Assembly (NCBI GenBank): GCA_937867305.1
Contig: CALMKJ010000203.1
Location: 1 to 54,940, forward strand
Direction of reading: 5' to 3'
DNA from: an uncultured Ectothiorhodospiraceae bacterium
GTDB lineage: Bacteria > Pseudomonadota > Gammaproteobacteria > JAABTG01
DNA length: 54,940 bases
How positions within the stretch are numbered: the stretch's first letter is position 1; every line of letters begins with the position of its first letter. Both the position numbers and the translations under genes were made by a program. A model generated the notes under the pieces. The model saw only the letters and a program-made list of their open reading frames with translations, did not search any database and had not been told where the DNA came from. Below, one piece after another: positions 44,295 to 46,909 of this stretch.

Positions 44295-44969
44295 GTGATC
44301 ACCTTCGACGACGTCAGCAAGAGCTACCCCAACGGACACCAGGCCCTGTCCCACGTGAGCCTGCACGTGGACGCGGGCGAGATGATCTTCGTGACAGGGC
44401 ACTCGGGTGCGGGCAAGAGCACGCTCTTGCGGCTCGTGGGCCTCATCGAGCGCAGCACCCAGGGGCAGGTGATCGTGGGGGGGCAGAACCTGGGCAAGCT
44501 CTCTCCCCGCCGCGTGCCCTATTACCGGCGCAGGGTCGGGATCACCTTCCAGGACCACCGGCTGCTGACGGACCGCACCGTGTTCGACAACGTGGCCCTG
44601 CCGCTGGTGATCGCGGGCTACAGCCATCGGGAGACCGGGCGCCGGGTGCGCGCGGCCCTGGACCACGTGGGGCTCCTCGGCAAGGAGCGCCACCTCCCCG
44701 AGTCGCTCTCCGGTGGGGAGCAGCAGCGGGTCGGCATCGCGCGCGCGGTGGTGAACCGGCCGGCGGTGCTGCTCGCCGACGAGCCCACGGGCAACCTCGA
44801 CCCCGAACTCTCGCGCGAGGTCATGCGGCTCTTCGTGCGCTTCCAGCAGGTCGGGGTCACGGTGCTCATCGCGAGCCACCACCTGGACCTGATCCGGCAG
44901 ATGGGCAAGCGCATCCTGTCCCTGCAGTCCGGTCGCCTGGCGACGGACTCCGGGCAGCCGCTGCCATGA
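44295..44969 (+). CDS. ftsE: Cell division ATP-binding protein FtsE
   Basis: 224 residues from the GTG at 44295. It starts with ITFDDVSKSYPNGHQALSHV, followed by Walker A GHSGAGKST, Q-loop ITFQDHRLL, signature LSGGEQQRVGIARAVVN, Walker B VLLADEPTGNLD and SHH for the H-loop. FtsE and FtsX form a complex that activates septal peptidoglycan hydrolases through EnvC-like partners. The stop overlaps ftsX by 4 bp. Confidence 0.98.
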   Translation: MITFDDVSKSYPNGHQALSHVSLHVDAGEMIFVTGHSGAGKSTLLRLVGLIERSTQGQVIVGGQNLGKLSPRRVPYYRRRVGITFQDHRLLTDRTVFDNVALPLVIAGYSHRETGRRVRAALDHVGLLGKERHLPESLSGGEQQRVGIARAVVNRPAVLLADEPTGNLDPELSREVMRLFVRFQQVGVTVLIASHHLDLIRQMGKRILSLQSGRLATDSGQPLP

Positions 44970-45958
44970 CCCGCCGGGCACGCCCCGCACGCGCCCGGGC
45001 ACCGGCCCGGGGTCTGCTGGAGCACTTTTCCGCCTGGCTGACCCGGCACGCCCAGGTGGCGGTGTCGAGCCTCGGGCAGCTGACCCGGACCCCCGGGGCG
45101 ACCTCGATGACGACGCTGCTCATCGGGATCGCGCTGGCGCTGCCGGCCTCGCTCCACGTGTCCGTCGAGAGCGTGCGCGCGGTGATGGCCGCCTGGGACC
45201 GCTCCACCCAGGTCTCGGTCTTCCTGAAGACGGAGGTGGACGACCGCAAGGCGGCGGCCCTGGGAGAGGCGGTGTCCCGCTGGCCCGAGGTGGACGCGGT
45301 CCACGTGCTCACCCGCGCCGAGGCCCTCGCCGAATACCGCACCTTCTCCGGCATGGGTGAGCTGGTGGACAGCCTGGACGCCAACCCGCTCCCGGCCGTG
45401 TTGCTGGTCCAACCCCATCCGGGGCCGACCCCGGGGAGTGGGAGTCCCGGGACCCCTGGGGCTCCCGGGGCACTCGTGGACCGTCTCGCCGCGCTGCCGG
45501 AGGCGGACGGCGCCCAGTTCGATCTCGAGTGGGTCCGCCGCCTGCAAGCCATCGCCGGGCTGGGGGAGCGCACCGCCACGGTGCTCGCGGGGGCGCTGGG
45601 ACTCGCGGTCCTCCTCGTGATCGCGAACACCACCCGCATGACCATCCAGGGGCGGCGAGACGAGATCGAGATCAGCAAGCTGTTCGGGGCGACGGACGCC
45701 TTCGTGCGCCGGCCCTTCCTCTACACCGGCCTCTGGTACGGGGTGCTGGGCGGCATCGCCGCCTGGCTCTGCCTCGGGGCCGTCGGGCTCGCCCTCGGAG
45801 GGCCGGTGGCCCGCCTCGCGGCGCTGTACGGCAGCGACTTTCGCCTGCAGGGCATGGGGGCCGGCGTGGGAGCGGCCCTCGTGCTCGGGGGTGGGCTCCT
45901 CGGACTGCTCGGCGCCTGGCTCGCCGTCAGCCGCTACCTGCGCGCCGTCAAGCCCTGA
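44966..45958 (+). CDS. ftsX: Cell division protein FtsX
   Basis: 330 residues. An Arg/Ala/Pro-rich cytoplasmic start is followed by one transmembrane helix (about 49-68), the periplasmic domain with STQVSVFLKTEVDDRKAAAL and DANPLPAVLLVQ, and three more helices (about 205-227, 250-275 and 294-320) with the FtsX segment NTTRMTIQGRRDEIEISKLF GATDAFVRRPF between them. An unusual Gly/Pro/Ser-rich insert of about 20 residues (residues 149-170, PTPGSGSPGTPGAPGA) interrupts the periplasmic domain before LVDRLAALPEADG. The protein controls amidase activation at the septum with FtsE. Confidence 0.96.
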   Translation: MTRRARPARARAPARGLLEHFSAWLTRHAQVAVSSLGQLTRTPGATSMTTLLIGIALALPASLHVSVESVRAVMAAWDRSTQVSVFLKTEVDDRKAAALGEAVSRWPEVDAVHVLTRAEALAEYRTFSGMGELVDSLDANPLPAVLLVQPHPGPTPGSGSPGTPGAPGALVDRLAALPEADGAQFDLEWVRRLQAIAGLGERTATVLAGALGLAVLLVIANTTRMTIQGRRDEIEISKLFGATDAFVRRPFLYTGLWYGVLGGIAAWLCLGAVGLALGGPVARLAALYGSDFRLQGMGAGVGAALVLGGGLLGLLGAWLAVSRYLRAVKP

Positions 45959-45994
45959 CCGGCCGCCCCGCGCCAGGCGAAACTCCCAGGGGCC

Positions 45995-46021
45995 CTGGCA
46001 CTCTAAAGCAGTGACTGCTAA
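45995..46021 (+). promoter_or_regulatory. CIRCE-like inverted repeat upstream of rpoH
   Basis: CTGGCACTC, nine bases, then GACTGCTAA matches the HrcA operator CIRCE (TTAGCACTC-N9-GAGTGCTAA) at 7 of 9 and 8 of 9 positions, with the exact 9-base spacer. It lies 37 bp upstream of the rpoH ATG. The right arm overlaps a possible extended -10 box (TGCTAAATT, 46016-46024), a placement fit for repression. Within it is also the smaller palindrome AGCAGT-G-ACTGCT (46007-46019). The match is seen in the sequence; binding by HrcA is inferred. Confidence 0.5.
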
Positions 46022-46057
46022 ATTTGTTCCAGACTTCTCGATGGGGACAGGGACGCG

Positions 46058-46909
<852 letters not shown>

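Follow-up and report, generated by a model that had tools for sequence, protein, structure and literature searches.

The stretch before rpoH, the gene for the heat-shock sigma factor (sigma-32), in an uncultured Ectothiorhodospiraceae bacterium is very probably a genuine operator for HrcA of the CIRCE type. The predicted operator overlaps the sigma-E promoter of rpoH, and this arrangement, read from motifs, is recurrent in most of the HrcA-bearing gammaproteobacteria examined. With good confidence, the site can be viewed as a real, slightly diverged CIRCE that was inherited with rpoH and through which HrcA would gate the gene.

The predicted operator and its genome

The window, meaning the whole stretch of DNA that was analysed, is 54,940 nucleotides long and carries the following features at this locus:

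44966 to 45958, + strand: ftsX-like gene, the upstream neighbour on the same strand as rpoH (an open frame, named from the initial annotation and gene context)
45979 to 45985, + strand: predicted sigma-E -35 element, GAAACTC, 5 of 7 bases matching GGAACTT
45995 to 46021, + strand: predicted CIRCE-type HrcA operator, CTGGCACTC-N9-GACTGCTAA, with arms at 45995-46003 and 46013-46021
46002 to 46006, + strand: predicted sigma-E -10 element, TCTAA, 16 nt after the -35 element
46016 to 46024, + strand: extended -10-like sequence TGCTAAATT, formed by the CIRCE right arm and the next 3 bases, a candidate sigma-70 promoter that is weak here
46058 to 46909, + strand: rpoH, heat-shock sigma factor 32 (283 aa; TIGR02392, 405 bits)

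The 27-mer CTGGCACTCTAAAGCAGTGACTGCTAA at 45995-46021 begins after the upstream frame has ended at 45958. It agrees with the CIRCE consensus TTAGCACTC-N9-GAGTGCTAA at 15 of 18 positions (3 mismatches) and has the 9-base spacer, just as the initial annotation had described it. That annotation was also right to place the site before rpoH; the distance from the end of the operator to the ATG at 46058 is 36 nt. In the window this is the sole CIRCE match with at most 3 mismatches, and 100 shuffles gave none. The whole 2.8-Mb genome holds two such matches, the other of which, with 1 mismatch, precedes groES. By our own arithmetic, about one match of this quality is expected by chance per 2.8 Mb, and a control pattern (reversed, non-complemented) gave one in the same genome, so a match count by itself has no genome-wide significance. 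The significance of the predicted site rests instead on its position and conservation.

A scoring matrix was built from 102 rpoH-CIRCE sites, all of them outside the window's family. The window site scores 27.6 bits, which falls among the scores of real sites, toward their low end (it outranks 5 of the 102), and exceeds that of any other position in the window by 26 bits; the maximum in 6 Mb of simulated sequence was not above 4.3 bits. Six of its nine arm positions pair, compared with nine of nine in many relatives. The three deviating bases all recur in other rpoH CIRCEs (C at position 0 in 11%, G at position 2 in 30%, and C at position 20 in 11%).

The searches for hrcA and for a groESL operator that the initial annotation proposed both gave a result, and neither of the two outcomes that it named as refuting was observed. 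The genome has one intact copy of hrcA (TIGR00331, 326 bits, over the curated cut-off), which nadK adjoins, followed by grpE-dnaK, and a CIRCE with 1 mismatch lies upstream of groESL, nearer the consensus than the rpoH site. The genome also encodes rpoE (TIGR02939, 319 bits, over the cut-off). An altered HrcA specificity in the window's family was considered and rejected, since the winged-helix DNA-binding region is typical and resembles the one found in relatives that have perfect CIRCEs, and the groESL operator lies close to the consensus.

A scan flagged a perfect palindrome, AGCAGTGACTGCT at 46007-46019, which together with a T-rich sequence might form a terminator hairpin for the upstream operon, the CIRCE match being a by-product. 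However, only 5 pairs were counted, and the palindrome is absent from G002, G003, and G004, family members in which the CIRCE-like arms are retained. The hairpin, not being conserved in the window's family, was rejected and is highly improbable.

Association with hrcA across the gammaproteobacteria

A first set of relatives carries perfect or near-perfect CIRCEs at the same place before rpoH. The survey covered 143 gammaproteobacterial genomes, mostly one per family, and a CIRCE was counted wherever the roughly 320 bp upstream of rpoH contained a match with no more than 4 mismatches. Among the best-scoring rpoH matches listed, such a site is present in 102 of the 112 genomes with hrcA versus 5 of the 31 without it (odds ratio 53, Fisher p=1.2e-15; the genomes are not independent, and exact figures are to be read loosely). 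Half of the rpoH sites in the hrcA-bearing genomes, again among the matches listed, are perfect CIRCEs, and the reversed-pattern control never came within 4 mismatches upstream of rpoH. Among named genomes, the count is 13 of 15 with hrcA versus 1 of 19 without. Among those with a CIRCE before rpoH are Alcanivorax, Dyella, Luteimonas, Methylocaldum, Parahaliea, and Thiodiazotropha; among those lacking it are Vibrio, Pseudomonas, Aeromonas, Halomonas, and Haemophilus, none of which has hrcA. Two genomes with hrcA break the pattern: Xanthomonas pisi, with 5 mismatches, and a Thioploca assembly.

These counts bear on whether the window site resembles CIRCE by chance, as the one match expected per genome and the one given by the control pattern would allow. 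Relatives, however, have the site at the same position and up to perfect matches, the operator depends on hrcA across genomes, and the matrix score is far above the background. A chance match was rejected on the conservation and the hrcA association, and there is hardly any probability left for it.

In five genomes the operator is kept and no hrcA could be detected; an incomplete assembly accounts for only one of them (G009, 62% complete). In the near-complete genomes G020 (locus L143) and G109 (L110) the dyad has 1 mismatch, and in G068 (L066) and G172 (L059) it has 3; two profiles found no hrcA in any of these four, and their dyads are suggested to be relics or the site of another regulator. 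A regulator other than HrcA might, by extension, bind the conserved rpoH dyad in some or all lineages. This is very unlikely: the dyad is strongly associated with hrcA and is absent from 26 of the 31 genomes without it (among the matches listed), and the rpoH consensus is the same as that of the groESL CIRCE in the same genomes.

Several individual sites deserve mention. In Pseudoalteromonas luteoviolacea H33-S (L212), a perfect CIRCE stands before rpoH and the sole HrcA match is weak (117 bits, below the cut-off), perhaps a divergent HrcA. Two tandem CIRCEs with 0 and 1 mismatches, 5 bp apart, lie upstream of rpoH in G014 (L027). A symmetric variant, TTAGCAGTC-N9-GACTGCTAA, in which both arms carry compensatory changes, is found repeatedly before rpoH at L234, L039 (G155), L274 (G331), and L275 (G482), which suggests that HrcA may tolerate a swap that preserves the dyad. 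A CIRCE-like site with a spacer of 8, CTGGCGCTC-N8-GAGTGCTAA, precedes rpoH in G097 (L076) and was missed by the fixed-spacer count.

The predicted sigma-E promoter and conservation of the site

The initial annotation had noted an overlap with a possible -10 box; the predicted operator overlaps both a conserved sigma-E -10 element and an extended -10-like element. In the window, the composite reads GAAACTC-N16-TCTAA, and the CIRCE left arm ends with the first two bases of TCTAA. The -35 element of three family members is GGAACCC or GGAACCG. When the 107 rpoH sites were aligned on CIRCE, GGAACTT was seen to end 16 nt (17 in some) before TCTNA, whose TC closes the CIRCE left arm. The GAAC core has a spacer of 16 in 66 of the 107 sites and of 17 in 11, with hardly any at other spacers. 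A -35 element with at least 5 of 7 matches accompanies 82 of the 107 rpoH CIRCEs versus 2 of 19 groESL CIRCEs (p=6e-8), and TCTNA accompanies 60 versus none. The groESL CIRCEs of relatives instead follow a CTTGAC...CTAT-type promoter.

A composite search of 299 genomes of the phylum returned nine sigma-E/CIRCE composites, eight preceding rpoH (that of G078 being assigned to rpoH by coordinates) and one preceding clpB; none of the nine lies outside the class. The last of these is an rpoH-type composite before a clpB-like gene in G065 (L276, C8:47853-47895), and the rpoH of G065 itself has no CIRCE within 320 bp. Among the genomes with neither hrcA nor operator, 8 of 26 have a strict sigma-E promoter before rpoH (0.4 in shuffles). 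The strict pattern found no sigma-E autoregulatory motif before rpoE of the window's genome, and the sigma-E consensus is therefore not independently calibrated for this organism.

Other promoter readings were also considered. The CIRCE right arm followed by AAT, TGCTAAAAT, is extended -10-like and occurs at 95 of the 107 rpoH sites versus 3 of the 19 groESL sites. A consensus scan of the window site for sigma-70 hexamers (TTGACA / TATAAT) gave no match, leaving only TGCTAAATT, so a sigma-70 promoter is not claimed for this genome. Reading TGGCAC as part of a sigma-54 promoter (GG-N10-GC) was rejected since the spacing in TGGCACTCTAAAGC is 9, off by one.

Comparison of the arms with their flanks, as the initial annotation had advised, favors the operator beyond the survey counts. 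In a sister species of the same genus, the operator is identical to that of the window at 27 of 27 positions, as is the rpoH leader after it (window 46022-46057) at 36 of 36, and the fourfold sites of rpoH are 85% identical. The 36 nt between the upstream stop codon and the operator hold 8 differences, none of them within the -35 stretch GAAACTCCC. An RNA thermometer in the rpoH leader plus gene start was rejected, the fold being no better than that of shuffles (z=0.02).

The left-arm sequence CTGGCRCTCTAA is common to the window's family. On the right-arm side, GACTGCTA is common to G000-G002, and G003 and G004 keep a perfect right arm. The sites of this family are among the weaker CIRCEs, with 3 to 4 mismatches, and are best described as a diverged version of an older CIRCE site for which HrcA may have a low affinity. 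Taken further, the divergence could mean that the ancestral operator was functional and that the site is now a decaying relic, with selection in this family keeping only the promoter (TCTAA and TGCTAAAT) and HrcA binding poorly. The mismatches (3 in the window, 4 in G002), the broken dyad symmetry, the partial coincidence of the best-kept left-arm bases with the sigma-E -10 element, and the better groESL site of the same genome would all fit such decay. Nevertheless, the sister species has an unchanged operator next to a differing upstream flank, each of the three substitutions turns up repeatedly in other hrcA-bearing genomes, two members of the same family keep the right arm perfect, and the window site outscores 5 of the 102 accepted sites. 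Decay is thus unlikely, though it is the most serious of the alternatives, and a working operator remains the preferred reading.

A proposed gate on sigma-32 and its known counterparts

The activity of HrcA is maintained by GroEL, which misfolded protein titrates. In an unstressed cell, free GroEL would thus keep HrcA active and seated on the dyad, where it would cover the sigma-E -10 element and the extended -10-like element and leave little rpoH transcription. Unfolded protein would titrate GroEL and release HrcA, opening rpoH and groESL together; if the envelope is also stressed, sigma-E would then transcribe rpoH. The new sigma-32 would raise GroEL and DnaK and so restore repression by HrcA. 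As a gate, rpoH would read sigma-E (or sigma-70) AND NOT HrcA. HrcA binding, repression, promoter use, and the GroEL feedback are what we infer, the feedback by analogy with HrcA work elsewhere. The analysis did establish the elements with their spacing and conservation, found hrcA and rpoE in the genome together with a CIRCE before groESL, and showed that the operator depends on hrcA across genomes; from this, HrcA should block the sigma-E promoter. The proposal in the initial annotation that HrcA control of rpoH would couple the two heat-shock systems gains support from the conservation and the hrcA association.

Textbooks, taking E. coli as the model, present HrcA/CIRCE and sigma-32 as heat-shock systems that run in parallel. 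It seems fairly probable that the ancestral gammaproteobacterial control of rpoH was a sigma-E promoter with an HrcA operator fused into it, repressor and sigma-E acting as one gate on sigma-32, and that the E. coli state arose by loss of hrcA. If HrcA gates rpoH in most gammaproteobacteria that carry hrcA, the two systems would form a hierarchy: how much sigma-32 can be supplied would be set during transcription by the availability of GroEL, and envelope stress would raise that supply only once HrcA lets go. The E. coli mode, mainly control of translation and stability, would be the derived state. HrcA gating of rpoH is easily testable in cultured Alcanivorax, Dyella, Methylocaldum, and Parahaliea.

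No report of the sigma-E/CIRCE fusion at rpoH, or of its breadth, was found in the literature searched, the 2003 survey of Permina and Gelfand lying outside that search. That survey reportedly deals with the regulons of HrcA/CIRCE and of sigma-32 in beta-, gamma-, and epsilon-proteobacteria, and some gammaproteobacterial rpoH CIRCEs may already be listed there. The link between HrcA and rpoH is not wholly new and not unique to this genome: HrcA control of rpoH was predicted in Geobacter sulfurreducens in 2004, where a perfect CIRCE lies 51 bases before the start codon (PMC545781, Table 8). That prediction concerns one species of delta-proteobacterium (a different phylum today) and no sigma-E promoter was described there, whereas the arrangement here is class-wide and fused with sigma-E.

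The CIRCE/HrcA systems of the groESL and dnaK operons in Bacillus and many other bacteria share with this one the dyad, the 9-base spacer, the presence of hrcA, and a heat-shock gene downstream. They differ in that the target here is the heat-shock sigma factor itself. Also, the groESL CIRCE lies just downstream of its CTTGAC...CTAT-type promoter and has no sigma-E -35 element, whereas the rpoH CIRCE overlaps the sigma-E -10 element.

In enterobacteria, rpoH is known to be under the control of sigma-E, the P3 promoter of E. coli rpoH being sigma-E-dependent. In Shewanella, the sigma-E promoter GAACTT-N16-TCTAT has been predicted, including at rpoH (PMC4336711). Both share their -35 and -10 elements and spacer with the motif aligned across the rpoH sites. 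Kluyvera and Lelliottia, for example, carry GGAACTT-N16-TCTGA before rpoH and no CIRCE there, and hrcA was not found in the other enterobacterial genomes searched. In the HrcA-bearing relatives, by contrast, the operator lies over the sigma-E -10 element.
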